Of a stretch of 64,000 nucleotides of DNA, positions 13,542 to 26,400 are shown one piece after another. The position numbers were made by a program, and so were the translations under genes. Source of the stretch: Nitrosomonas sp. (lineage in GTDB: Bacteria; Pseudomonadota; Gammaproteobacteria; Burkholderiales; Nitrosomonadaceae); the NCBI RefSeq assembly GCF_024282095.1, contig NZ_JAMWZS010000003.1, positions 56,085 through 120,084 on the forward strand, given 5' to 3'. The notes beneath the pieces were generated by a model. The model searched no databases, was not told the origin of the DNA, and worked only from the letters and a program-made list of their open reading frames with translations. Within the stretch, counting starts at the first letter, position 1. Each line of letters starts with the position of its first letter.

Positions 13542-13793
13542 ATGAAAACAAGTCATTTTTTTCTTAGCACGGCAGTCAAAGTGAGTTTTATTTTGTTTGG
13601 CATTATGCCAGTAATCGGCTTAATTTTATTTGGTGCTATGCCTATATCTTCAATAGTGCAATCGGTAATAAACTGGGCGGGAATGGATATTATTCTCGGA
13701 GTAACAGTTTTTCTGGGCTATCTTATAATTACTGCAATACGTGGTGTTTTAAAGAAGAGAACATATCATTCTTCAATGAGAATTTCTGCATAG
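13542..13793 (+). CDS. Small two-helix membrane protein of unknown function
   Basis: The 83-residue protein has two strongly hydrophobic segments (about residues 13-35 and 46-66) and a basic tail (KKRTYHSSMR). The ATG is preceded by AGGAG with about six bases of spacing, which supports real translation. I do not recognise a family. It lies between the SulP gene and the DAB/carbonic anhydrase operon but on the opposite strand, and an 11-bp-phased repeat array lies just upstream. By position it could be an accessory to inorganic-carbon uptake, but the sequence alone does not show this. Confidence 0.65.
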   Translation: MKTSHFFLSTAVKVSFILFGIMPVIGLILFGAMPISSIVQSVINWAGMDIILGVTVFLGYLIITAIRGVLKKRTYHSSMRISA

Positions 13794-13847: not shown

Positions 13848-14255
13848 GCTTTCACTCCGATACTTTTTGCAACTTGTATTTTTCATTAGCTGATAATTGC
13901 TAGTGGAAGCGCAAAAGTACTGTTATCTGCATAGTATCGTATAAGTGCATGCTAATTGCTAATAATTTGATTCTATGTAAGATTACTGTTAAATGCTGTT
14001 TTTCTGAATTAGCATTGCTGATCTGTATGACTCACAGCTTTAGTGTGTATTCTGCTCCCATGCTTATTAGGTTGTAAATATTCCTATTTAGCGAGAGCGC
14101 TATGGTTATACATAGCCGTTAACTTCCTCATCTGTTTTATAGTTATCATCACAGATTTCGTAAGATTACTACTTTAAATGATAAACAGTTATCTCGTGCA
14201 CTCTTGCGATAAGGTATATAGATGAAATTAACCGCGCGAATCGCTACAAAACCTG
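13848..14255. other. Intergenic region without recognisable genes
   Basis: About 400 AT-rich bases separate the hairpin from the end of the small acidic protein gene on the other strand. I see no supported reading frame or structural RNA. It probably contains the end of the DAB operon transcript. Confidence 0.5.
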
Positions 14256-14507
14256 CTACGCGTCTTGCTGCGCAGCTGTTTCTGCAGTTTCTCGTTCTTC
14301 AATTTCTGGTACAGCTATTTCAGATTCGTTTTGTATTTGCTCGTTGCTGTAAACTGCATCATGTGTTTCATCCTTGGCATGAATATCAATATCATGCACG
14401 TTCTTCACATCGTCACTAATATCCCTTTCTATGCCATCTTCGCTACCTGTATTTTCTTCACTATTTTTAGAACCAAAAAGACTCGAAATCCAATCAGAAA
14501 AACCCAT
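14256..14507 (-). CDS. Small acidic protein sharing the N-terminal motif of the first carbonic anhydrase-like protein
   Basis: This 83-residue, strongly acidic, probably disordered protein begins MGFSDWISSLFGSKNSEEN. The neighbouring carbonic-anhydrase-like protein begins MGVFDWLSGPSNSKNNEES, so both share MG-x-x-DW-[IL]-S...SKN-x-EE. The DNA around the starts is also alike, including the ribosome binding site (AAGGAG before this gene). The rest is rich in Glu and Asp and matches nothing I know. It is the last gene of the carbon-uptake operon, 161 bases after the carbonic anhydrase gene. It may be a free-standing targeting or scaffold peptide, or the surviving 5' end of a third copy of the duplicated gene. 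The antisense reading frame here is less likely. Confidence 0.6.
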   Translation of the reverse strand: MGFSDWISSLFGSKNSEENTGSEDGIERDISDDVKNVHDIDIHAKDETHDAVYSNEQIQNESEIAVPEIEERETAETAAQQDA

Positions 14508-14668
14508 GGTACTTCTCCTTTCGTTCGAATAACGTAAATTGATAGATCTTACATAATATGTGCGATATCAGTTTTTAGTAGTTTTATATGTTTACTGTAT
14601 GATTATAAATAGAGTTATTACCTCCTTTCTGAAAATAACAAAGATAAAACTCAAATCAAACAAACGTC

Positions 14669-15829
14669 TTATCCAAGTCGCTCTGTCATTTTAAACTGTC
14701 TGGTATTTAAATCGGTACATCCAGTAAGTATTTGCAAATGAGGCGCTAAATCAGGAACCTTATCTTTGATGATATCGAGTGCAAATTTACTGAGAAACCG
14801 TGCTTTTTCTGTAGCTAGGCGATACTCAGGGCCGGTCTCATCTCTGTAAACACCTGAAGTCAGGAGTACCACACCATCTGGATCAATTCGGCCGTCGTCA
14901 ATATTGTTTTTCAGGAGCTTTGCAGCGGTTTCAATGGCAACCGAAAGGTTGGGGTCGAACGGTCCGACGATAAAAGCCGTATTGATAACATGCAACCAGT
15001 CAAAGCCACGCCCAACTCCCAGTACCCATTCTTTATGTTCGGCTTCTTCAATGGGTCTGTTGGAAGCCCGAATCTCCGCAATGTGTTTAATATTTCCCCG
15101 TACTAACGGTAAGAAGTCTCGAATAATTCGTTCGGGCATAGACGGATAGAGTGAGCGAAGCATTTCTTCCAATTCGAGCTGAGAAGACTCTTTGGTATTT
15201 GCCAAATCAATGAAACGATCGTTCTCACCATGCAGGATCAAGGCATCCAAGTCGGTTTCGATACCGCACACGATGGGTACTACAGCGCCACCTCGACCAT
15301 AAACAGAATCAAATTGATTTTTCAGCTTTATCGCTGCGGCTTTGGCAGCATCGGTGTCATAGCCAAATCCTCTACAACCCCGATGAGTATCGCCACGTGC
15401 AAAATGATAGGTTACAAACACTAAGCAATGTCTACCTCGACTGATGGAATATTCCACCCATTGATCAATCGCTTTCTGAAAAAATGGCCAGCCTAAGTCA
15501 AATATGCCGCCAAGATTACGAAATGGTTGAATGATCCCCAGTGTAGTTTGTGTCATAACGGGTAGATGCAATCGACCATCCATGCATTTAAGTGCTGCTA
15601 TTTCAGTTGGATGCTCATTTCTATACTTGCGTCTCTCAACAGCCAGATCCATAAAGGCTTGAGAGTGTTGTGTATTTAAATTAAGTAGATAATCAATCCC
15701 AGTATTTGTCACATCGCGCGTACTTGCAATATCTTTACTGACATGCTCTTCTGTGTTGATTTCATTATCCTTACTTTCTTCATTATTTTTAGAGTTAGAA
15801 GGACCCGACAGCCAGTCAAAAACCCCCAT
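14669..15829 (-). CDS. Beta-carbonic-anhydrase-like protein, copy 1 (N-terminally extended)
   Basis: The 386-residue protein carries the beta-carbonic-anhydrase pattern of one Cys-x-Asp-x-Arg (Cys82, Asp84, Arg86; KCMDGRL) and a later His-x2-Cys (His149, Cys152; THRGC), the expected zinc ligands and Asp/Arg dyad. His142 is an alternative ligand that would give the wider His-Cys spacing of the carboxysomal CsoSCA type. The length (about 345 residues without the extension) also fits a CsoSCA-like two-lobed protein better than a plain 200-residue beta enzyme. The enzyme would interconvert CO2 and bicarbonate. Compared with copy 2 it has about 40 extra, acidic residues starting MGVFDWLS, with GGGAG six bases before the ATG. 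Apart from that the two copies are more than 90% identical by eye. The CA function is inferred from motif and context. Confidence 0.7.
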   Translation of the reverse strand: MGVFDWLSGPSNSKNNEESKDNEINTEEHVSKDIASTRDVTNTGIDYLLNLNTQHSQAFMDLAVERRKYRNEHPTEIAALKCMDGRLHLPVMTQTTLGIIQPFRNLGGIFDLGWPFFQKAIDQWVEYSISRGRHCLVFVTYHFARGDTHRGCRGFGYDTDAAKAAAIKLKNQFDSVYGRGGAVVPIVCGIETDLDALILHGENDRFIDLANTKESSQLELEEMLRSLYPSMPERIIRDFLPLVRGNIKHIAEIRASNRPIEEAEHKEWVLGVGRGFDWLHVINTAFIVGPFDPNLSVAIETAAKLLKNNIDDGRIDPDGVVLLTSGVYRDETGPEYRLATEKARFLSKFALDIIKDKVPDLAPHLQILTGCTDLNTRQFKMTERLG

Positions 15830-15881
15830 AGTATTCTCCCTTTTAGATATGATCTAAGCAACTGAAAATGTTTAGAGAGTT

Positions 15882-16931
15882 TTATCCAAGCCGCTCTATC
15901 ATTTCAAATTTTCTGGTATTTAAATCGGTACATCCAGTAAGTATTTGCAAATGAGGCGCCAAATCAGGCACCTTATCCTTGATGATGTTGAGTGCAAATT
16001 TGCTGAGAAACTGTGCTTTTTCTTTAGCTAGATGGTACTCAGGGCCGGCCTCATCTCTGTAGACACCTGAAGTCAGTAGCACGACACCGTTTGGATCAAT
16101 TCGGCCGTCGTCAATGTTATTTTTCAGGAGTTTTGCAGCGGTCTCGATGGCAACCGAAAGATTGGGGTCAAACGGTCCGACGATAAAAGCGGTATTGATA
16201 ACATGTAGCCAGTCAAAACCGCGCCCAACTCCCAGTACCCATTCTTTGTGTTCGGCTTCTTCAATGGGCCTATTGGAAGCACGGATCTCCGCAATGTGTT
16301 TGATATTTCCCCGTACTAACGGTAAGAAATCTCGAGTAACTCGTTCAGGCATAGACGGATAGAGTGAGCGAAGCATTTCTTCCAATTCGAGTTGAGAAGA
16401 TTCTTTGGTATTTGCCAGATCAATAAAACGACCGTTCTCACCGTGCAGGATCAAGGCATCCAAGTCGGTCTCGATTCCGCACACGATGGGCACTACAGCG
16501 CCACCTTTACCATAAACAGAATCAAATTGATTTTTCAGCTTTATCGCTGCAACTCTGGCAGCATCGGTGTCATAACCAAATCCTCTACAACCCCGGTGAG
16601 TATCGCCACGCGCAAAATGATAAGTGACAAAGACTAAGCAATGTCGACCACGACTGATGGAATATTCCACCCATTGATCAATAGCCGCCTGGAAGAATGG
16701 CCAGCCCAAATTAAAGATACCGCCAAGATTACGAAATGGTTGAATGATCCCAAGTGCAGTTTGTGTCATAACCGGTAAGTGCAACCGACCATCCATACAT
16801 TTAAGTGCCGCTATTTCAGTAGGATGTTCTCCTCGATACCTGCGTCTCTCTGTAGCCAAATCCATGAAATCTTGCGAGTGCCGTGCGTTTAAATTAAGCA
16901 GGTAATCAATCCCGGTGCTCATGTTATCCAT
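15882..16931 (-). CDS. Beta-carbonic-anhydrase-like protein, copy 2
   Basis: The start is set at 16931 (MDNMSTGIDYLL), 29 bases after the stop of the NuoM-like gene and with AAGG about nine bases upstream. A longer reading to 17075 would run far into that gene. The 349-residue protein has Cys45, Asp47, Arg49 (CMDGR) and His112/Cys115 (HRGC), with His105 nearby, the same zinc-ligand set as copy 1. It lacks copy 1's acidic N-terminal extension and is otherwise nearly identical, so the pair arose by a tandem duplication within the operon. It probably supplies or consumes bicarbonate for the DAB complex or for RuBisCO. A close relative could be the shell enzyme CsoSCA, but no carboxysome genes lie in the window. 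Confidence 0.7.
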   Translation of the reverse strand: MDNMSTGIDYLLNLNARHSQDFMDLATERRRYRGEHPTEIAALKCMDGRLHLPVMTQTALGIIQPFRNLGGIFNLGWPFFQAAIDQWVEYSISRGRHCLVFVTYHFARGDTHRGCRGFGYDTDAARVAAIKLKNQFDSVYGKGGAVVPIVCGIETDLDALILHGENGRFIDLANTKESSQLELEEMLRSLYPSMPERVTRDFLPLVRGNIKHIAEIRASNRPIEEAEHKEWVLGVGRGFDWLHVINTAFIVGPFDPNLSVAIETAAKLLKNNIDDGRIDPNGVVLLTSGVYRDEAGPEYHLAKEKAQFLSKFALNIIKDKVPDLAPHLQILTGCTDLNTRKFEMIERLG

Positions 16932-16960
16932 TATTGTTTTCCTTATCTTATATGTAAAGT

Positions 16961-18466
16961 TTAGGGTGTTTGCATAGTTAGCCGAGATAACCATACCTCG
17001 GCGGCAACTTGATTCAATTTTAGTATACCATCTGGGAAAAAACCAAATATCAGAATCAATAGTGTCGGGATGCATACTAAAGCGAGTTCTCGTAACTGTA
17101 AATCATGCGTTTGTTTTGCATCAGCATGTGAAATTGGACCGAGGAAGGCGCGCCGCGAAAAAGATAGCATATAACCGGCACCCAGGACCGCACCGATTAA
17201 GGCGGCAATCCCTAATGCAGCATTGACAGTCAATGCACCAATAATTATTAAAAATTCTGCTGGAAATCCGCTGGTTCCGGGTACGCCGATACTTGCTAGC
17301 GCAAACAAAAAATAAACACAGGTTAGACGCGGCATCACTTTGGCAAGACCTCCCAAGTGAATAACATCCGTGCTACCCAGGCGATGATGGATAAATCCTG
17401 AAATCAGCATGAGCACACTGGCAATGAGTGTGAAGTTGAGTAATTGGAAAATTGCGCCCTGAACCCCTTGCATCGTTAGTGAGGCAATTCCGACAATGAC
17501 CAATCCAACGTGGCTTACACTGGCATAAGCCAGTAAACGCCGCAGATTGGTTTGCTGTAACGCAATCAGTGCAGCATAAATCAGTGTAATGGCACCAAAA
17601 AGGCTGATTACCCAACTGAATTCAACGGCTGCAACAGGCGCAAGCGGCATGGTAAAGCGCAGAATGCCGTAAACACCGAGCTTTAGACCCACTAATATCG
17701 CAACGATATGAGTCGGGCCCTCCATAGCAACGGTAGGCAGCCAAGTATGGAATGGAACGAGTGGTGCTTTGACAGCGAAACCGAATAGCAAAAGCAGAAA
17801 AACTAACTTTTGCTCATCATCCGGTAATACAGTTTGCAACAAAATTGGCAAGCTGAATGACAAGCCTTGAGGTATATCGCTACCTATTTGAAAGGCGTGG
17901 TTTGCAGCCAGGAGAGTGATAGCGAGTAATAACGCGACTCCGCCGGCTAACATGAATAATGTATATTTCATCGCCGCTTCACGTCGTTGCGAGCCGATAC
18001 CCCACAAGCCGATTAAAAAGAAGAAAGGGGGCAGCGTGAGTTCCCAAAATAAGAAAAACAATACCAAATCTAATGAACAAAATACCCCGACAGTAATCCC
18101 TTGCAATGCTAATAATAATGCAAAATGAAAGCGCGGATTGTGTTGAACCGAGTTCCATGAAGCAAGGATCACTATGAGTGTCAATAGCGCTGATAACGGC
18201 AGGAATAATAAAGAAATACCGTCTATACCAATCATGTATTCAATTTTAAGCTGTGGTATCCAGTTATATTTCTCGACCAGTTGAAAATCACCAATAGAAG
18301 CATCAAAAAAATATACCACGAAGAGTGCCAAGATCAATTCTAAGCCAGAAAACAGCAGTGCAATCAATTTGGCCAAGCCGGTGCTCTGCGTAGCGCCAAC
18401 GATAATTGCTCCCAATAAGGGAAAGAAAATAAGAAAACTAAGCAATGGAAAATCGACTTCACTCAT
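16961..18466 (-). CDS. NuoM/MrpD-like antiporter subunit 3 of the DAB operon
   Basis: The 501-residue membrane protein has about 14 helices of the proton-translocating antiporter family found in complex I (NuoM) and Mrp antiporters. The functional residues of a proton channel are all present: Glu in FWELTLPPFF (helix 5), Lys in GFAVKAPLVPFH (helix 7), Lys in GLKLGVYGILRF (helix 8) and Glu in GFPAEFLIII (helix 12). It starts one base after the stop of subunit 2 and is followed 29 bases later by a carbonic-anhydrase-like gene. No peripheral complex I genes are near. The likely role is to couple an ion gradient to CO2 hydration by DabA. Confidence 0.85.
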   Translation of the reverse strand: MSEVDFPLLSFLIFFPLLGAIIVGATQSTGLAKLIALLFSGLELILALFVVYFFDASIGDFQLVEKYNWIPQLKIEYMIGIDGISLLFLPLSALLTLIVILASWNSVQHNPRFHFALLLALQGITVGVFCSLDLVLFFLFWELTLPPFFFLIGLWGIGSQRREAAMKYTLFMLAGGVALLLAITLLAANHAFQIGSDIPQGLSFSLPILLQTVLPDDEQKLVFLLLLFGFAVKAPLVPFHTWLPTVAMEGPTHIVAILVGLKLGVYGILRFTMPLAPVAAVEFSWVISLFGAITLIYAALIALQQTNLRRLLAYASVSHVGLVIVGIASLTMQGVQGAIFQLLNFTLIASVLMLISGFIHHRLGSTDVIHLGGLAKVMPRLTCVYFLFALASIGVPGTSGFPAEFLIIIGALTVNAALGIAALIGAVLGAGYMLSFSRRAFLGPISHADAKQTHDLQLRELALVCIPTLLILIFGFFPDGILKLNQVAAEVWLSRLTMQTP

Positions 18467-18467
18467 T

Positions 18468-20054
18468 CTAATTATCCTTGGTAATAATCAACATCGTTTT
18501 ACTGTCGGAATACGATGTTTTTGCGGGAGTGGGATGCAACTCTTTGATGGAGCCTGCACCTTGGTCAATAATATGTAACCAAGGTGAAGTATGGAAACCA
18601 ATACCAATCAGCAAGGTGCAAATCACTGCAACAATGATTGTTTCATTGATAGGTGATGACAGCACAATTGGTTTGGGGGAATATAAAAAGGGTCCCTGAA
18701 AACGTTTAGGTGTGGCTATAAAAATCTGCTGGAAAGCACGCAACAATAGCGCTGCTGCCAAAACGTTACCGATCAGCACTACGATGGAAACAAACCAGCC
18801 ATGCTCCTTGATGGAACCTTCGATTAATAAATGAATGCCATCGAATCCCGGGGTACCGGGCATGACCATGGTACTTAATGCACTGATAACGAATAAGATA
18901 GCTATCCCCGCGTTAGCATCGAACATACCACCCAGACGCGGAATCATTGAGGTATTGGTACGCTTATAGATCATACCGATACTAAATAGCATACCTGCTG
19001 CTGCTAATCCAAAAGCAATTGAAAGTAGCATGCTGCCTTCCAGTCCATAACGATTAAAGGCAAAGATTCCAATGACCAGTATTCCTGTTTGACTGATGAC
19101 AGCAAAAGCCAACAGGCGACGGATGTTGATCTGCATGAGCGCAAGCAGGGCACCATATAAGATTCCAATCAATCCAAATATCAATACCAGCCAGGACCAT
19201 TGTTCTGAAGTCTCAGGGAGAATGGGTATTAGGAATCGAATGGCCGCATAAACACCCAATTTCAAACTGACTAATAAGATCCCTACACTAGCGACAGTGC
19301 CTTGTTCTGCCAGTACCGGCAACCATCCATGAAACGGGAATAATGGCATCCGAATAGCAAATCCAAAAAATAATAGGAAAAAAGTCAGTGTGGCATATTC
19401 CACTGAAGAATCACTTTGCTGCAGAGCCAGCCAGTCAAATGTTAATGTATCTCCTGAACCCATAATGCTAAATCCAAGCATCAAGAACCCGGCAAGAACC
19501 ATTAGTAATCCACTACCCCAGTGCTGTAGTAAAAGGGCGACAACCCAGCGCCGATTCTGCCCGGTACCGGAGCGTATAGTGAGTATCGCAACCGGGATTA
19601 ATTCCAGTAGACACCAAAACCAGAATTGCAAAGCATTCATTGCAACAAACGCGCCGATTAAAATCGCTTCATATCCCAGTAGTGCAGCAATATAAATTCT
19701 GTCTGAAGCGGAACGGCGTGTTGTCAATGTATAAATCAGAGCCAAGGATGTTAAGATGGTTGTCAATGGGATGAACAGAACACTGATGCCATCTACACCA
19801 ACCGTATAAGTAAAAATAATATTTTGTACCTGTTCATACAGCTGAATGCCTGATTTAGTAGTGTCAAAAACTAGCAGTAGATAAATACTCAGTAAAAAAG
19901 TAAGTATCGTTCCTGCGAAACCGATGCGTAGCGCAATAGCTCGTGTTGGCGACAATAAAACTGCAATCATTGCTACCAATGGGATCAGCGTCATCGATGT
20001 TAGCAGTGGGAACATCGCTGTTTCCCACCAAAGCGTAATATTTACAGTATCCAT
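18468..20054 (-). CDS. NuoM/MrpD-like antiporter subunit 2 of the DAB operon, with altered channel residues
   Basis: This 528-residue protein belongs to the same antiporter family (PROTON_ANTIPO_M type) with about 14 membrane helices. The helix-5 Glu is kept (CLLELIPVAIL), as is the helix-8 Lys (SLKLGVYAAIRF). The helix-7 Lys is replaced by Arg (GFAIRMPLFPFHGW), and the helix-12 Glu is missing where its partners read FPAE and this one reads FDGI. It may therefore be a structural or non-pumping paralog. It starts seven bases after DabB's stop and abuts subunit 3. Confidence 0.85.
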   Translation of the reverse strand: MDTVNITLWWETAMFPLLTSMTLIPLVAMIAVLLSPTRAIALRIGFAGTILTFLLSIYLLLVFDTTKSGIQLYEQVQNIIFTYTVGVDGISVLFIPLTTILTSLALIYTLTTRRSASDRIYIAALLGYEAILIGAFVAMNALQFWFWCLLELIPVAILTIRSGTGQNRRWVVALLLQHWGSGLLMVLAGFLMLGFSIMGSGDTLTFDWLALQQSDSSVEYATLTFFLLFFGFAIRMPLFPFHGWLPVLAEQGTVASVGILLVSLKLGVYAAIRFLIPILPETSEQWSWLVLIFGLIGILYGALLALMQINIRRLLAFAVISQTGILVIGIFAFNRYGLEGSMLLSIAFGLAAAGMLFSIGMIYKRTNTSMIPRLGGMFDANAGIAILFVISALSTMVMPGTPGFDGIHLLIEGSIKEHGWFVSIVVLIGNVLAAALLLRAFQQIFIATPKRFQGPFLYSPKPIVLSSPINETIIVAVICTLLIGIGFHTSPWLHIIDQGAGSIKELHPTPAKTSYSDSKTMLIITKDN

Positions 20055-20061
20055 TTAATCC

Positions 20062-21630
20062 TCATATCGAAGATGCACTCAATAACACCACAAGAACAAA
20101 CACAACAAGATAGCGTGGTTTAAGTATTAATTTTTCAAATGAATTCGCCAGATGTCCTAGTTGCTTACCGATATCGACCATTTCTATACCAACCCCACGT
20201 AGCACCAATCGTTCCTCAAACCAACTCATTGCACTGGCTACCCACTCAAAAATTTTTCCGGCGATACCTTTGCCGCGACCAAATTCAGTCGCATCATAGC
20301 CTGAACGCGCAATTTTGATTTTTTGTTCCAGTTGAGCCAGGGTTGATATTGCGTCGCGCGAAGTAGGTGATCCTACTGCACGGTCGATAAAGTAGTTGTC
20401 AAAATAATCCAGATCCCGGCCTAATCCATAAGTCGGCCTTACTAATGCGCGATCTATGATAGGGTCAAGCCAGAAGCGTTGCAGCGATGAGTTGTACAAC
20501 CAGCGCAAATGAGCCAAATCTCGTGAAACCGGCCGCATGGGGTTGCCATTGGCGTGAAGTACCAGGGATGGCGAAGTCAAAACCTGATACCCACGCATAA
20601 TGACATGAGCACACATATGCCAGCTCGCAAGCTCCCAAAAACCTAAGCCACATTCAATAAACATCAATCCTATCTGGCCTGTAATTGCGAAACAGATGGA
20701 GCTTTTTACATCAGTTTGGGTTAATCCGACAATGAAGCTATAGATGGCAGTCAGCAAACCGACTATAACGCACAATATCATTGCAAAAGGTGCTCGTTCA
20801 AAGAGGGGTTGCAACAGTATGATCAGGAATACTCCGGAATGTATCATTACCGAACCATAAAACACGGCGCTTGAAGGTGTGGGGCCTTCCATTGCTCTGG
20901 CTAACCATGGAGAAAAGGGCAGTTGTGCGGATTTGGTGAAGGCTGCAATGGCGAAGCACAATGCAATGACCGTCGCATGCGATGTGGGCATGACGAGCTC
21001 TGCCTTCGAATTCAGATCTGCCCAATTGGTGGTTCCTGCATAGTGAAAGGCTAAAGCGATTCCAAAAATGAAACAGGCATCGCCAACACGGTTGGTAACA
21101 AAAACACGCGTGGCATTAATTGTTGCGATTGGGCGATCATATGCATAGGAAATTAAGAGATAAGAACATAAACCGGCAATTTCCCAGCCAATAAAAGTGA
21201 TCACTGCGTTACCCGACAGCGATATCAGCATCATGCCGGTAGAAAACAAGCTGAAAATAAAAAGATAACGAATGAATCCCTTTTCTCGATGCAGATAGTA
21301 GGTCGAAAATTGGATAATGATAACCAGAATTACTGAAAACAGTGCGGCGACGATGACGCTATATCCGCTGGTAACAAAGCGCATTTCGATATTGAGCAAT
21401 TCGCTACCTAGCCATTGTCCAACGTTAAATGAACCACTGTTGTTACCCAGAAAATCTGAGACCATTAAAGCAATGGCAAGCAAGCAGGCTGATATGATGG
21501 CAATTCTTACCATGACAGACATGATATTTTCATATCGCCTATCGATATTTTGAGAAATCAAAAAATTTACACCAATCAGCAGTGCAACCAATAGCGGTAC
21601 CAGGGGAATTAATGCAGCTAAGTAATCCAT
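20062..21630 (-). CDS. dabB: DabB, MrpD/NuoL-like membrane subunit of the DAB inorganic-carbon complex
   Basis: DabB is the membrane partner of DabA; together they form a vectorial carbonic anhydrase that hydrates CO2 to bicarbonate and is driven by an ion gradient. This 522-residue protein is of the NuoL type: Glu in FIGWEIAGLCSYLLI, Lys in FTKSAQLPFSPWLARAMEGPTP, and a His-containing helix 8 (SVMIHSGVFLI). As in known DabB it is shorter than NuoL and ends with a soluble stretch and a final helix. It starts one base after the DabA stop, the tight pairing expected for the two subunits. Confidence 0.9.
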   Translation of the reverse strand: MDYLAALIPLVPLLVALLIGVNFLISQNIDRRYENIMSVMVRIAIISACLLAIALMVSDFLGNNSGSFNVGQWLGSELLNIEMRFVTSGYSVIVAALFSVILVIIIQFSTYYLHREKGFIRYLFIFSLFSTGMMLISLSGNAVITFIGWEIAGLCSYLLISYAYDRPIATINATRVFVTNRVGDACFIFGIALAFHYAGTTNWADLNSKAELVMPTSHATVIALCFAIAAFTKSAQLPFSPWLARAMEGPTPSSAVFYGSVMIHSGVFLIILLQPLFERAPFAMILCVIVGLLTAIYSFIVGLTQTDVKSSICFAITGQIGLMFIECGLGFWELASWHMCAHVIMRGYQVLTSPSLVLHANGNPMRPVSRDLAHLRWLYNSSLQRFWLDPIIDRALVRPTYGLGRDLDYFDNYFIDRAVGSPTSRDAISTLAQLEQKIKIARSGYDATEFGRGKGIAGKIFEWVASAMSWFEERLVLRGVGIEMVDIGKQLGHLANSFEKLILKPRYLVVFVLVVLLSASSI

Positions 21631-21631
21631 G

Positions 21632-24600
21632 TTATGCCTCCATCCGCTCGGGTTGTTTAATCAGAACAGGTGGCAACGGCTCATTCTCGTTCTGATAATA
21701 GGATACTGATGATTCAAGAATTGGTACCTGTCTTTTCTCAGCTTGCCATGGCACAAAACCAACCCCCCGTTCGAATATCGATATTTCACCGCTATCGGGA
21801 TCCATGGCACCTAACAATATCCAACCGCCTCCGACCAGCTCACGAATAACCGCCTGGCGCTCATATATTTGCCCGAGAATTTCAGTTTTGGCTTCAATAA
21901 GAACTTGTAGGCGCAATGGTTCATGAATCTCGACCATTTGCTTGGATAAGCCCGTACGCAGATCACTTGTGGTGCCTTCCATCACGCCAAACATACCGGT
22001 AATGTTATGTGTAACCTTTGTGCCGCAGCCAAAATAATCGTTGTTGACTGTGGAAAAATAATATTCAAGATTGATACCGGCACCAACTGGACCAACAGCC
22101 AATAATAGATTTTCAAGCAGCTTGCCGTCGGCATCCTGCGTTGGGTCATATGAAATCAGAAAAACCCGGCGGTCCAGAAATGTACCCTGAGAGACTGAAC
22201 GCCGGCCTATGATAGCCCCCGCGATGGTGGCATGATTATATTCGGGGAAAGCCTGAGAAAAATCATTGGCGCGTAAGTAAACGTGCTGCTTTCCTTCCTC
22301 AGGCGTTTTGGGATTATTGGCTGAGGCAAAACGGCGGCAGCGCTCATGAGCAGAAGCTTTACCTGCATTGATTAAATCCCTCTTGACCGCTTCAAAATTT
22401 GATAATGCATGCTGGGGAATATCGATCACGTCATACCAGGTATATTCATCGCTACAGGTATCATGTTCGGCACCGACAAACCAGGTATCCTCTGGAATAT
22501 TGATACCGCGTTGCGCTAGCAATGCCCTGATTTCTGGACGATTTGCCATAGCAGCAAACAACCGTGCATTGGGGCCGCCACGTTTGCCACTGCAAGCGCC
22601 ACAGTTATAAGCGAATCCATGCGGGTTATTTTGATTGGTAGAACCATGCCCAAACAGCACAACAATGGGCGCAAAACCATAGGACAAGCCTGTTGTACGC
22701 ATAAATACAGTGAGTTTGTCAGCTTGTTCTTGATCAGTAAAACCCACACGAGGATTATCCGGTGTTGCGGCAGTATCTGACGCTGGTGCCGTGAACATTA
22801 ACCGCGTAGGGACTTGTTTTTCGATACTTCGGCGCAGCGTGTTATTAATTGCCAGCGTATATTTAGGTAGAAATACTTTGCCCAATAAGCCAAAGAAAAC
22901 AATGGGTGCCAGTGCGTCAATCACCGCATGTGAGAAAATCAGGCTGCGTCGCAGTGACTGATTCATTAAATAGGCTAGCTTCTTATAAAGGCGATAACCG
23001 ATGGTATGTTCTTGCAGCACACGATCGGTGCCTTCTCTCGGTATCTCATTCACTTCATTGACGGGAGTTACGGGCAGAGGACATTGTTTTTTTATTTTTA
23101 TGTCGTCGATTCCCTTGTAATTCATTGGAATACCGAAAAACCCTGCAGCACCAAGTGTTTCGATAGTTGGATTAATTTCTTCCAATTGACGACGCAAGCT
23201 TTCTTCACGATCATCCATGCACGTGACAACTTGTGCTTGTGGTCTCTGCTCGCGCTTAGCCCAGCGTCCACGTTTTAGGTTTGCATGTAAGACTTGATAG
23301 AAATTTTCTCTGTAATGATATTCGTAAGCATACAGCCACAATTTGCCACGTTGATCAGCAGTAAATTCATCAAGAACCGCCAGCATGCTATGCAAGTCTT
23401 TTTGCTGAGCATGCTGGAGGTGCATTGCATTTACCCCCAGATGCTGGCATAAGCGGAGTAATCGCCAACCGCCGTTGAACGCATTATGGCTAATATTATC
23501 TTCTACCATCGGACTGTGTTGCCACGTCCAGATTAAATCAGCGAGATCCTGCCACTCTGATTGCTTATACCGCTCTGAACTGGTACGCAACAGCAGATTT
23601 CTAACCGAATTAGTCAGGTATTCCGGTAAATCCCCATGATAGAATAACTTCCGTACCATGAATTCCGAGAGATTTTTCTGAAAATAAAATCGTAATGCGC
23701 CCACTCGTGCATCAATATTCCAGATATCTTCACAGGCTTGATAAAGCCATAGTCGATCTAACGTCAATCGGATAGCGAGATAATCGGCCAAGTGTACTTT
23801 TGAGGGACCGTTGTCAGGAAGATAATGCGGACGATGTTGTCGCCAGTTAATCATGCCTGCCCAACCCGGCAAATCAAATGCAAGCAAACGTAAATATCCT
23901 TCCCACTTTTCTTCGGGAATTTCTAAATGGGTCAGCTGCATAATGATGCAATCAACAGGATCTGTCGGAGTTTCTGAGATAACTCTCTGCCAATCAGGCA
24001 AGTCATGTAAAAATGGATTGGCATCATAGTGCATAACTGATCGCCAAGCAGCATACAGTCCAACCTCTCCGCAACCGGGTAATTTCCATGCGGATACGCC
24101 TTCATCCAAAGCAGATGCGCAGATGCGTATTAATTTAGTGCGGACTGAATACAGAATGTCTATTCCAGTGAGCGCCTTTATAAAATCGCGCATGGTTATA
24201 CTGTCACCCAATTGTGCCAGCATCTCATTGAGCTTGACTTCAGCTTCCTCACGCATTTTCAGGTGAATCAACAAATTATCGCTAACCGCTTGGGCGGAGT
24301 GGATTCTTTCCAACCATGTTTTTGCTTGTTCTTCCGATAAATCAAGCATGTTTTCGGGGTGTAATGAGGATTGCTCTAAATTCAGCTTACTTAAAATGAG
24401 GTCCCAAATCTGTTTAATGGCAACGGCTTCATCGGCATCACCTGCAAGCAGTTTTTTGCGTACAGCGTCAGGCACATCGGGTTGAATTTTTTGCAATGCA
24501 TTCAGTTCCTCGATTTGCCAATTTAATTGGCTGGCAGAGATGCCCTGCAAATCACATAGTAGTGCCACGCGATAAATATCGTTGCGTGTGATGGTCATCT

Positions 24601-24919
24601 GCGCCAATTTGCAAACCACTTGATCAGCACGTAATTCCGGATCATGCGCGATAGCAGCGGTCAGATCCTCATCGGTAATGGACCCTTTCTGGTATAGCGC
24701 ACGGTTGCGTTCGTCTGAGAGATAGCCGTGAATGCCCGTTAATGTTTCAACTTCTTTGACGGCCTCTTCAAATGGTAAGTGCTGAAAACCATGGATAGTG
24801 TTGTGGTGGACAAATTCACGTATAGTCGCTTGTCCAGGCAAGAGATGATCTAAGTGATCCAAATAAGCTAATATTTGCTCTTTCTTATCAGAAAATTCAG
24901 AGTGTCCTTTTATTGTCAT
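21632..24919 (-). CDS. dabA: DabA, beta-carbonic-anhydrase-like catalytic subunit (UPF0753/DUF2309)
   Basis: The 1095-residue cytoplasmic protein belongs to the UPF0753/DUF2309 family. Its zinc site is visible: Cys567, Asp569, Arg571 (VTCMDDREESL) and, far downstream, His758 and Cys773 (FGHGSTNQNNPHGFAYNC). The 15-residue His-to-Cys spacing matches characterised DabA, so the protein should be active. It lacks membrane helices and must dock on DabB and perhaps on the NuoM-like partners. It is co-transcribed: eight bases after NuoM-like 1 and one before dabB, with AGGA eight bases upstream of the ATG. DAB complexes are known from autotrophs such as Halothiobacillus and Hydrogenovibrio as two-gene systems; the larger setting here is unusual. 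Confidence 0.93.
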   Translation of the reverse strand: MTIKGHSEFSDKKEQILAYLDHLDHLLPGQATIREFVHHNTIHGFQHLPFEEAVKEVETLTGIHGYLSDERNRALYQKGSITDEDLTAAIAHDPELRADQVVCKLAQMTITRNDIYRVALLCDLQGISASQLNWQIEELNALQKIQPDVPDAVRKKLLAGDADEAVAIKQIWDLILSKLNLEQSSLHPENMLDLSEEQAKTWLERIHSAQAVSDNLLIHLKMREEAEVKLNEMLAQLGDSITMRDFIKALTGIDILYSVRTKLIRICASALDEGVSAWKLPGCGEVGLYAAWRSVMHYDANPFLHDLPDWQRVISETPTDPVDCIIMQLTHLEIPEEKWEGYLRLLAFDLPGWAGMINWRQHRPHYLPDNGPSKVHLADYLAIRLTLDRLWLYQACEDIWNIDARVGALRFYFQKNLSEFMVRKLFYHGDLPEYLTNSVRNLLLRTSSERYKQSEWQDLADLIWTWQHSPMVEDNISHNAFNGGWRLLRLCQHLGVNAMHLQHAQQKDLHSMLAVLDEFTADQRGKLWLYAYEYHYRENFYQVLHANLKRGRWAKREQRPQAQVVTCMDDREESLRRQLEEINPTIETLGAAGFFGIPMNYKGIDDIKIKKQCPLPVTPVNEVNEIPREGTDRVLQEHTIGYRLYKKLAYLMNQSLRRSLIFSHAVIDALAPIVFFGLLGKVFLPKYTLAINNTLRRSIEKQVPTRLMFTAPASDTAATPDNPRVGFTDQEQADKLTVFMRTTGLSYGFAPIVVLFGHGSTNQNNPHGFAYNCGACSGKRGGPNARLFAAMANRPEIRALLAQRGINIPEDTWFVGAEHDTCSDEYTWYDVIDIPQHALSNFEAVKRDLINAGKASAHERCRRFASANNPKTPEEGKQHVYLRANDFSQAFPEYNHATIAGAIIGRRSVSQGTFLDRRVFLISYDPTQDADGKLLENLLLAVGPVGAGINLEYYFSTVNNDYFGCGTKVTHNITGMFGVMEGTTSDLRTGLSKQMVEIHEPLRLQVLIEAKTEILGQIYERQAVIRELVGGGWILLGAMDPDSGEISIFERGVGFVPWQAEKRQVPILESSVSYYQNENEPLPPVLIKQPERMEA

Positions 24920-24927
24920 TGTTAATC

Positions 24928-26400
24928 CTATTGAATACGTTGACTGATAATATCGCTCATCTGAGTAATGGTTGCCGTTGATAAATCAATTAAAAGCGAC
25001 GGCCATAGACCAAAAAATACAATGCTGGCAACCAGTATGCCCGCTGCCAATAGCTCGGGTGTTCGCAAATCCTCAATTTCACGCATTTGCGGTTTTACAG
25101 GGCCTGTAAATAGCATGCCAATGGTGCGCATTGCATATGCTGAACTAATGACGATGCTTAAGCCCAGAAAGATCATCAGGAAACCCCATTGCTGAAAACC
25201 ACCAAGGAATGCATGAAGTTCGGCAAAAAATCCGACTGTACCCGGCAAGCCCATGGCAGCGAATAAGGTGATGGTCATGAATAGAGCAAAGCGTGGCATG
25301 ACTTCAACCAAAGAGCTGTAGTCCAGGATGTTGCGGGTATGAGTTCGTTCATAGAGCAGCCCCACCAGTAAAAACATGGCGCCCGCTATTAAGCCATGAG
25401 CCGTCATTTGTAAGACAGCACCGATGAATCCGGTTAAGTTCAACGTGGCTATATCCAGAAGTACTACGCCCATGTGACTTACAGAGGAATAGGCTACCAT
25501 GGCTTTAAGATCAATCTGTCGCCAGGCTAATAATCCGCCATAAACCATACCAAATAATGCCAGGAAAACAAGAACGGGCTGCAGTACCTGCGCTGCTTCG
25601 GGTAGCATCACGACTGCCCTGATTAATCCATAAGCACCCATTTTTAATAAAATGCCGGATAACAGGATACTGACTGGACTGGGTGCTTCTACGTGTGCTA
25701 AAGGGAGCCAACCATGAATTGGGAAAATAGGCATCTTGACACCAAAGCCGATCAAGAATCCTATTAATACCCATACTTGCTCATTCTTAGGCATGCTTTG
25801 CGCTGCTACGCTCATGGACGACATCAGTGTGCCGCCGTGCGGTGGCATATACTGACTGATCGCAAGCAAGCTGATTAACATAAAAATCGAGCCACCCATT
25901 GTATAGAGTACAAAATTAAGGCTCGCCACATGACGTCGTACACCGCCCCAACGACCAATCAGTAAGAATAGCGGCGCTAAGGTCACTTCCCAGAAAATAT
26001 AAAATAAGGTCCAGTCTTGCGAAAGAAACACACCCAGCATCCCAAATTCGAGTAGCAGGATACAGATGTGATAACCCTTGGTACCGTTAGAAATATTGAA
26101 AGAGGCCAGTAGCGCAATGGAAGTAAGCAAACATGCCAAAGCGACCATGGGTAATGACAGACCATCAACGCCTAATGCAAAGTGGCTACCCAGCTTTGGG
26201 TTGAGTACGAATTGCTGTTCAAACTGCAAGCCGCTATCGTGTATGTTATAGATAACAACTAGCCAGCAGCTGATCAAAAAAGCAATTGTTGCAAACAGGT
26301 TTGCGATGAATCGAATCTGATTGATGTTCTGTTTTGGTGTTAACGCCAGAAATAAAATGCCTATCGCAGGCATCCAAAGTAATATACTGAGTATCCCCAT
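24928..26400 (-). CDS. NuoM/MrpD-like antiporter subunit 1, first gene of the DAB operon
   Basis: This 490-residue membrane protein is most like NuoM. It keeps Glu in YIFWEVTLAPLFLLIG, Lys in GFGVKMPIFPIHGWLP, Lys in GILLKMGAYGLIRA and Glu in GFFAELHAFLGGF, so the whole proton path is intact. It leads the operon NuoM-like 1, dabA, dabB, NuoM-like 2, NuoM-like 3, two carbonic-anhydrase-like genes and a small acidic protein, all minus strand and mostly with gaps under 60 bases. None of the other complex I membrane or peripheral subunits is present, so it does not belong to a respiratory NADH dehydrogenase. Confidence 0.87.
   Translation of the reverse strand: MGILSILLWMPAIGILFLALTPKQNINQIRFIANLFATIAFLISCWLVVIYNIHDSGLQFEQQFVLNPKLGSHFALGVDGLSLPMVALACLLTSIALLASFNISNGTKGYHICILLLEFGMLGVFLSQDWTLFYIFWEVTLAPLFLLIGRWGGVRRHVASLNFVLYTMGGSIFMLISLLAISQYMPPHGGTLMSSMSVAAQSMPKNEQVWVLIGFLIGFGVKMPIFPIHGWLPLAHVEAPSPVSILLSGILLKMGAYGLIRAVVMLPEAAQVLQPVLVFLALFGMVYGGLLAWRQIDLKAMVAYSSVSHMGVVLLDIATLNLTGFIGAVLQMTAHGLIAGAMFLLVGLLYERTHTRNILDYSSLVEVMPRFALFMTITLFAAMGLPGTVGFFAELHAFLGGFQQWGFLMIFLGLSIVISSAYAMRTIGMLFTGPVKPQMREIEDLRTPELLAAGILVASIVFFGLWPSLLIDLSTATITQMSDIISQRIQ

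Follow-up and report, generated by a model that had tools for sequence, protein, structure and literature searches.

An enlarged and conserved DAB-family gene array with three additional NuoM-type subunits in Nitrosomonas and other beta- and gammaproteobacteria

DAB complexes pose the question of how membrane energy is coupled to the hydration of CO2 and how many protons are paid for each CO2. The sole solved DAB complex, DAB2 of Halothiobacillus neapolitanus, has one membrane subunit. The window analysed here, 64,000 nucleotides of a Nitrosomonas sp. genome (RefSeq GCF_024282095.1, contig NZ_JAMWZS010000003.1, positions 56,085 to 120,084), carries a widespread natural relative with four: the genes for the carbonic anhydrase (CA)-like subunit DabA and its NuoL-like membrane partner DabB are accompanied by three genes for antiporter-like proteins of the NuoM type. 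We find the five-gene array NuoM1-DabA-DabB-NuoM2-NuoM3 to be a conserved DAB-family system of enlarged size, marked by a residue signature of its own.

An enlarged DAB operon on the minus strand had been proposed for this place by the initial annotation; all of its open reading frames (ORFs) were confirmed, and the Pfam and NCBIfam identities agree. The gene order is NuoM1-dabA-dabB-NuoM2-NuoM3, two genes for CsoSCA-type CAs and one for a small acidic protein, with a SulP gene downstream. This makes eight genes in the annotation's own list, which it had counted as a seven-gene order. The gaps, described there as mostly tiny, measure 1-8 nt within the five-gene core. DabA (PF10070) adjoins the NuoL-like PF00361 protein DabB, as is characteristic of the broad DAB/DAC family. 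NuoM1, NuoM2 and NuoM3 are PF00361 proteins for which TIGR01972 (NuoM) is the top-fitting model. A family search of the operon proteins revealed no NuoN, NuoK, NuoJ, NuoH, NuoA or electron-input genes. The small subunits of Mrp antiporters (B, C, E, F and G) were also absent among these proteins; the top NCBIfam models were NuoM and NuoL, so that the operon does not classify as Mrp.

Conservation of this arrangement was examined in one genome per species scanned; all counts of named loci refer to the best 80 of 557 confirmed DabA relatives. The core was scored as intact if NuoM1-DabA-DabB-NuoM2-NuoM3 occurred with every gap at most 1 kb. Fifteen of the 80 loci run into contig ends, and 58 of the 65 with enough flank were intact, the largest gap being 893 nt. 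Seven loci depart from the intact core (L169, L189, L190, L191, L194, L199 and L200). One of them, L194, was counted as a departure and not as a cut locus; although its upstream flank is short, the gene for DabB-NuoM2 can be seen some 7 kb downstream of DabA. NuoM3 is still present in the genome in all six departures searched genome-wide (54-71% identity), while in the seventh, L199, it is located 1.4 kb after NuoM2. The hosts span beta- and gammaproteobacteria and include ammonia oxidisers (Nitrosomonas, Nitrosospira, Nitrosovibrio), Candidatus Nitrotoga, methanotrophs (Methylobacter, Methylomonas, Crenothrix) and other gammaproteobacteria (Competibacteraceae, Acidiferrobacterales). Within the genus of the window, array-type DabA (at least 58% identity) was detected in 27 of 61 genomes; 19 of 20 genus loci fetched were intact, and the remaining one is cut by a contig end. 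Genus loci and named loci partly share genomes, and the 110 array DabA rows used below represent 102 distinct sequences. Synteny over this many genomes puts the gene arrangement far beyond chance. The synteny check suggested at the outset thus found the five-gene core to be general across beta- and gammaproteobacteria, but not the CsoSCA2-type CA gene or its doubling. A search of plasmids returned distant DabA relatives only, all below 60% identity and none with 80% query coverage.

The residues of the active site are retained in the array DabAs. The window protein keeps C567, D569, R571, H758 and C773, and the equivalents of C351, D353, R355, H524 and C539 of DabA2, the catalytic subunit of DAB2, are kept in 110, 110, 109, 110 and 109 of 110 array DabAs, respectively. 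The zinc, Asp and Arg residues are retained throughout the DabAs compared. Two other positions set the array proteins apart. At the position of DabA2 Leu658 the window DabA has His896, as do nearly all array DabAs (His in 109, Tyr in one), while the 39 standalone DabAs have Leu in 35 cases and His in four. The position of DabA2 Glu444, Asp668 in the window, is occupied in the array by Asp (65) or a non-acidic residue (45) and never by Glu; the standalone proteins have Glu (34), Gln (4) or Asp (1). Another 13 DabAs combine Glu with Leu in 12 cases and Ala with His in one (L051). The 39 standalone loci were hand-picked from lower-identity DabA matches and are not a random sample; L126 and L128-L130 were added for the count of DabBs. 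Each of the 39 standalone loci has a single antiporter-like ORF in the vicinity of DabA, as opposed to four in the array. Positions 658 and 444 were both singled out in the study of DAB2 (PMC13144422), where Leu658, which is Gln or His in ordinary beta-CAs, is called strictly conserved in 150 DabA homologues, and mutation of Glu444, located in the membrane finger, abolished activity. His at position 658 alone need not alter function, since DAB2 still worked in vivo with Leu658 replaced by Gln, Gly, Ala or Asn (PMC13144422).

In the DabA tree, the array proteins form one clade with full support (100/100), to which L272-L275 and L051 are sister. By its sequence, the array DabA belongs to another class than the DAB2-type protein. 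The NuoM subunits were added within the clade in which DabA precedes DabB. At the L051 locus (L126; G101:C13, 110-5719), which lies outside the array clade, DabA-DabB is followed by a divergent PF00361 protein; it is perhaps an intermediate with two membrane subunits.

The membrane partner carries a signature of its own. The match of the window DabB to NuoL stops near residue 362 of 522. The Glu of transmembrane helix (TM) 5 is present in 92 of 92 array DabBs versus 5 of 42 scored standalone DabBs; in NuoL its equivalent forms an ion pair near a subunit interface, and in DabB2 the position is Ile151 (PMC13144422). In Competibacteraceae, DabB and NuoM2 are encoded in one open frame of about 1030 aa. 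A search of 39 genomes of this family gave a match at E <= 1e-60 in 27, spanning near the whole fusion in 19. The remaining matches are partial, fragmented or to NuoM3 alone, and the fusion frame is interrupted in G357. A fusion of this family-wide extent is good evidence for adjacent positions of DabB and NuoM2.

All four antiporter-like subunits descend from complex I. NuoM1, NuoM2, NuoM3 and DabB were each monophyletic in a maximum-likelihood tree, with NuoM2 and NuoM3 as sisters (97/90), NuoM1 as sister to complex I NuoM (97/89) and DabB grouping with the NuoL of the host's complex I; the tree contained few outside sequences and no Mrp proteins, and long branches were flagged. Channel positions were read by alignment to the NuoM of the host itself: TM5 Glu, TM7 Lys, TM8 Lys and TM12 Glu, which we take to be the proton path of complex I. 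Sequences below 75% or above 1.35 times the reference length and those with stops were left out of the residue counts, which also removed the fused DabB-NuoM2 rows. The four residues are practically invariant in NuoM1 (100, 100, 101 and 100 of 101) and in NuoM3 (83, 83, 83 and 82 of 83). NuoM2 differs: Glu is absent from all 86 sequences at both TM5 and TM12, and TM7 has Arg in 86/86, with Lys kept at TM8 in 86/86. Its replaced positions come with a conserved charged set of their own, namely Glu two residues after the TM5 position (84/86), the TM7 Arg, Asp or Glu two residues before the TM12 position (86/86) and His one residue after it (86/86), and mere decay of NuoM2 was rejected on these grounds. 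The idea that the NuoM genes are stray complex I genes was likewise discarded, as order and sequence classes are kept across families.

The fixed order, the retention of NuoM3 in six of six split operons and the DabB-NuoM2 fusion argue for one physical complex, in line with the larger assembly that the initial annotation had envisaged. Given these sequence patterns, we consider it probable that the array encodes a CO2-hydrating complex driven by the proton motive force (PMF) and equipped with extra channels derived from complex I. The five core proteins would form one membrane complex, in which the zinc-containing, beta-CA-like DabA would be held by DabB at the end of a row of three NuoM subunits. 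The PMF would drive protons inwards through DabB, together with the membrane finger of DabA, and through NuoM1 and NuoM3. NuoM2, adjoining DabB, would use its own charged residues to relay coupling, either conformational or electrostatic, and would not conduct in the canonical manner. The inward flow of protons would open and drive DabA, resulting in one-way hydration of CO2 to bicarbonate. The extra channels could allow the cell to spend more than one proton per CO2, or to keep up the same reaction when CO2 or the driving force is low. In Nitrosomonadaceae, the bicarbonate might then be turned back to CO2 for RuBisCO, with no carboxysome, by a CsoSCA2 that is either cytosolic or tethered to the membrane.

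Several observations weigh against this interpretation. Four standalone loci (L272-L275) have His at position 658, the TM5 Glu of DabB and DabA before DabB, with no NuoM gene nearby. Since these loci share them, the DabA substitutions and the Glu of DabB characterise the DabA-first clade as a whole, and coupling to the NuoM subunits is not proved thereby; the TM5 Glu, once considered as proof of such coupling, is weakened in that role by the same four loci. The proton path of DAB2 is not simply transferable to the array, because 45 of the 110 array DabAs are non-acidic at the Glu444 position. An AlphaFold2 model of the DabB-NuoM2 fusion (predicted template modelling score, pTM, 0.60; mean predicted local distance difference test, pLDDT, 65.8) was good in the NuoM2 half only; its DabB half failed (pLDDT mostly 30-60), and the model is silent on the contact between the two. 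An active CA free in the cytosol would tend to waste the bicarbonate made, and CsoSCA2 is not the hosts' sole CA, since 35 of 39 array hosts possess an ordinary beta-CA. Two further points, the presence of complex I in every host and the sufficiency of two subunits in DAB2 (PMC13144422), belong to the alternatives considered below.

Given that DAB2 functions with two subunits only (PMC13144422), DabA-DabB alone could be the pump in the array as well, with NuoM1-3 acting as a separate cation/proton antiporter that balances pH or ions for the proton released by CO2 hydration. That NuoM3, NuoM1 or DabA can sit apart (L169, L189 and L191) would fit such a division. It is difficult to reconcile with the DabB-NuoM2 fusion of Competibacteraceae and with an interleaved order kept over beta- and gammaproteobacteria. 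The operon also has no Mrp small subunits, and NuoM1-3 are of the NuoM type, in a tree without Mrp proteins. We therefore regard a separate antiporter as unlikely.

A complex I isoform, in which NuoM1-3 and DabB replace the distal arm and DabA is driven by electrons like CupA in cyanobacterial NDH-1MS, appears rather improbable too. The subunits do descend from the NuoL and NuoM of complex I, and the complex I genes at other places in the genome could supply a full arm. The initial statement that no other complex I subunits are present is true of the operon, but independence from complex I does not follow, as NuoF and with it complex I was detected in 39 of 39 array hosts. This last count is uninformative, because complex I is also present in hosts that have no array. 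The operon lacks NuoN, NuoK, NuoJ, NuoH and any electron-input gene; to our knowledge, however, cyanobacterial cup operons are also devoid of the rest of complex I, so that this absence is no argument against an isoform. What does speak against it is that four antiporter-like subunits plus NuoN exceed the usual length of the arm, and that DAB2 operates with no electron transfer (PMC13144422).

Sodium-coupled bicarbonate symport, as proposed for the homologous MpsAB of Staphylococcus aureus, which is argued to use sodium according to the account in PMC13144422, would agree with the absence of the proton-path residue Glu444 from array DabAs; with the catalytic zinc, Asp and Arg residues kept, and with NuoM1 and NuoM3 retaining the residues of proton-pumping NuoM, we judge it highly unlikely. 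A machine working in reverse, in which an exergonic reaction of the soluble subunit lets the antiporter row pump ions outwards, was proposed in 2017, when the CO2 role had not yet been recognised, for operons encoding several membrane subunits (COGNAT; PMC5700660), and it is very hard to sustain given a beta-CA-like DabA, bicarbonate transporters and CAs as neighbours, the little energy available from CO2 hydration and the use of the proton gradient by DAB2 (PMC13144422).

Against this background, the PMF-driven complex may be set in a wider frame, which we put forward as a serious but tentative proposal. The array might represent a third mechanistic class of vectorial CA, of complex I size and electron-free, with His at the canonical transition-state position of its beta-CA-like subunit and the channels of DabB, NuoM1 and NuoM3 geared through a non-conducting NuoM2, spending more than one proton per CO2; in ammonia oxidisers it would operate with a carboxysome-free CA, and in methanotrophs it would do so in the absence of CO2-fixing RuBisCO. 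Such a machine would show an antiporter row of complex I operating without electron transfer, and would give organisms without carboxysomes, among them methanotrophs and ammonia oxidisers important in soils and wastewater, a means of carbon uptake. An array of this kind could reveal how proton power is geared to carbon capture; if the row is real, removal of a single NuoM should alter coupling.

The features of the locus are listed in Table 1. A scan of the region for promoters and terminators found sites no commoner than expected by chance.

Table 1. Features of the DAB operon and its downstream flank (window coordinates).
Feature	Position	Strand	Characteristics
NuoM1	24928..26400	-	Antiporter-like, complex I NuoM type; TIGR01972 473.7 bits; E138, K222, K253 and E394 kept
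DabA, 1095 aa	21632..24919	-	Beta-CA-like catalytic subunit; PF10070 E 6e-237; match to 9rd0_A, E 1.4e-68
DabB, 522 aa	20062..21630	-	NuoL-like; TM5 Glu150, TM7 Lys233 and TM8 His264 kept
NuoM2	18468..20054	-	Non-canonical NuoM type; TIGR01972 276.9 bits; TM5 Glu, TM7 Lys and TM12 Glu replaced; E/R/D/H/E-or-D set of its own conserved
NuoM3	16961..18466	-	NuoM type; TIGR01972 462.1 bits; E142, K233, K262 and E404 kept
CsoSCA2-type CA, copy 1, 349 aa	15882..16931	-	Start moved from ORF start at 17075; PF20686 E 3e-6
CsoSCA2-type CA, copy 2	14669..15829	-	PF20686 E 2e-5; N-terminal extension resembles start of small acidic protein
Small acidic protein, 83 aa	14256..14507	-	23 D+E versus 5 K+R; amphipathic start MGFSDWISSLFG
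Terminator-like hairpin at end of small acidic gene	14255..14276	-	Weak; such sites occur in the region at chance level
SulP-family transporter, 449 aa	11711..13060	-	Recurrent neighbour of the array, on either side, in Nitrosomonas

Both genes after NuoM3 had initially been read as beta-CA-like. The CA assignment stands for the two of them, but they are of the CsoSCA type and not ordinary beta-CAs, as indicated by PF20686 and by matches to CsoSCA structures. The ORF of copy 1 was called too long at the 5' end; when started from the ATG at 16931, the protein has the same length as several orthologues in Nitrosomonas. The C, D, R, H and C residues common to five carboxysomal CsoSCA sequences are present in both proteins. 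A predicted model of copy 1 (pLDDT 70.9, pTM 0.68, active-site loops below 50) had five Foldseek matches in PDB at E <= 0.001, all of them CsoSCA structures. Scores against TIGR02701, the equivalog model of carboxysomal CsoSCA, were far below the cut-off of 241 (29.1 and 26.3 bits). With a predicted CsoSCA-type fold, full active-site residues, a short N-terminus and a position outside any carboxysome locus, the proteins classify as putative CsoSCA2. The copies differ by a nonsynonymous divergence (dN) of 0.036 and a synonymous divergence (dS) of 0.44; both are evidently under selection in view of this disparity, and copy 2 was rejected as a fresh, idle duplicate.

The N-terminus of copy 2 (MGVFDWLSG) resembles that of the small acidic protein (MGFSDWISS) and of its relatives after CsoSCA2 in other Nitrosomonas loci. 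The shared start is amphipathic (hydrophobic moment 0.37-0.49), which makes a tether to the membrane or to a partner possible. In a parsimonious history of copy 2, the CA-acidic pair would have been duplicated in tandem, and a deletion would then have joined the acidic start to the second CA.

Among the loci examined, CsoSCA2 beside the array is confined to Nitrosomonadaceae and one other locus (L024), and two copies occur in this window only. Of the 18 intact genus loci with enough flank after NuoM3, 16 have CsoSCA2 there; the genus loci that lack it, L114 and L115, carry RuBisCO on the contig of the array, at a distance of about 11 kb. Elsewhere in the order, CsoSCA2 of other families was seen near hydrogenase-4-like membrane genes of the NuoL/NuoN type (L027 and L032) and, in L030, a HyfE-like one, these names resting on inspection of sequences and weak NuoM similarity; in L027 it also lies near a SulP-like gene and RuBisCO-like genes.

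In the flanks of the best 80 named loci we found CsoSCA2 in 18, an ordinary beta-CA in eight, SbtA in seven and SulP in 22, the last counted at 46% identity or more to either of two queries; neighbour families were checked. The Methylomonas-type loci L178, L179, L182 and L188 show the order array, beta-CA, SulP, and there another CA stands in for CsoSCA2. The bicarbonate transporter SbtA and a PII-type protein are encoded directly upstream, on the strand of the array, in L141, L143, L144, L147 and L180. These neighbours (SulP, SbtA/PII and CAs) agree with a role in inorganic carbon metabolism. The label of an inorganic-carbon operon of autotrophs fits in this respect but proved too narrow: RuBisCO was detected in 31 of 39 array hosts, and the eight without a match are G111, five methanotrophs and two Competibacteraceae. 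The array was accordingly dismissed as proof of autotrophy.

The genome of the window has one DabA, two RuBisCO large-subunit genes and one ordinary beta-CA; CsoS2 was not found in it. Separate NuoL/M/N and NuoF genes are located on another contig, so that the NuoM genes of the operon are additional copies. Alpha-carboxysome CsoS2 was present in three of 39 array hosts, with all three positive controls detected. Among the 61 genomes of the genus, CsoS2 occurs in four and array-type DabA in 27; one genome (G341) has both, against about two expected by chance, and a mutual exclusion of carboxysome and array in the genus was not borne out.

Some further observations concern the surroundings of the array. 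Immediately upstream of the operon, on the same strand, the window encodes an RTX-type repeat protein (PF00353; 26971-27918, minus strand). A small hydrophobic protein is encoded at 13542-13793 on the plus strand; similar ones occur upstream of the array, on the opposite strand, in L132, L133, L134 and L153. Several methanotroph loci (L160, L172, L173, L176, L184 and L210) have a conserved protein of about 159 aa after the array, with a start like TNTIEARPPVPPFTRD. In Candidatus Competibacter phosphatis, NuoM1 and DabA lie in a single open frame of 1605 aa (L192, 8468-13285), which carries little weight, being seen in one genome and having an internal Met at the junction.

The arrangement can be compared with several known systems. 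One published description is 'clade C' of the COG3002/YbcC operons in COGNAT, in which ybcC (dabA) precedes the nuoL homologue and genes for SulP (COG0659) and NuoM (COG1008) are frequent nearby, with the suggestion that more membrane subunits might move more ions (PMC5700660). That account predates the CO2 role and assumes the opposite direction of energy flow, and its passage on clade C mentions neither a fixed order of five genes nor a fusion, a residue pattern or CsoSCA. The CAs of the window fit the 2022 description of CsoSCA2 as carboxysome-free, shortened CsoSCA homologues with complete active-site residues, including one from Nitrosomonas oligotropha; the CsoSCA2 account there has no mention of DAB genes (PMC9164163), and the relevant passages of PMC10880623 and PMC12646314 make no link between the two. 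In the open-licence literature we found no report describing the five-gene complex as a CO2 pump or tying CsoSCA2 to DAB genes. As far as these searches reach, the new findings are the set of five genes in fixed order, the fusion of DabB with NuoM2, the signature residues, the exchange of beta-CA and CsoSCA2 and the spread to hosts without RuBisCO.

The cyanobacterial NDH-1MS and NDH-1MS' (Cup) complexes likewise couple antiporter-like NuoL/NuoM subunits to a CO2-hydrating subunit. They are built on a complete complex I core and powered by ferredoxin-linked electron flow, whereas the array operon has no electron-input gene. The parallel drawn in the initial annotation therefore holds as an analogy of parts, but not of the energy source. 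The '2M'-type complex I of Nitrospira has a doubled NuoM (PMC7784846) and shares with the array an antiporter row lengthened by extra NuoM; it is a complete complex I accompanied by the remaining nuo genes, whereas the array combines a CA-like subunit with NuoL and NuoM types only. DAB2 (DabA2-DabB2; PDB 9rd0, 9rd8 and 9rd9; PMC13144422) likewise has a PF10070 subunit carrying these C/D/R/H/C residues, and its NuoL-like membrane partner also matches NuoL only to about TM11; the complex exploits the proton gradient with no need of electron transfer. The array differs in its three extra NuoM-type subunits and in having DabA before DabB, and it shows none of the marks of the DAB2 subtype (Leu658, the finger Glu444 and loss of the TM5 Glu): His replaces Leu658, no Glu occurs at 444, and the TM5 Glu, for which DabB2 has Ile151, is retained in DabB. 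As both residues singled out in the DAB2 structure differ in the array, the two systems lend themselves to direct comparison.

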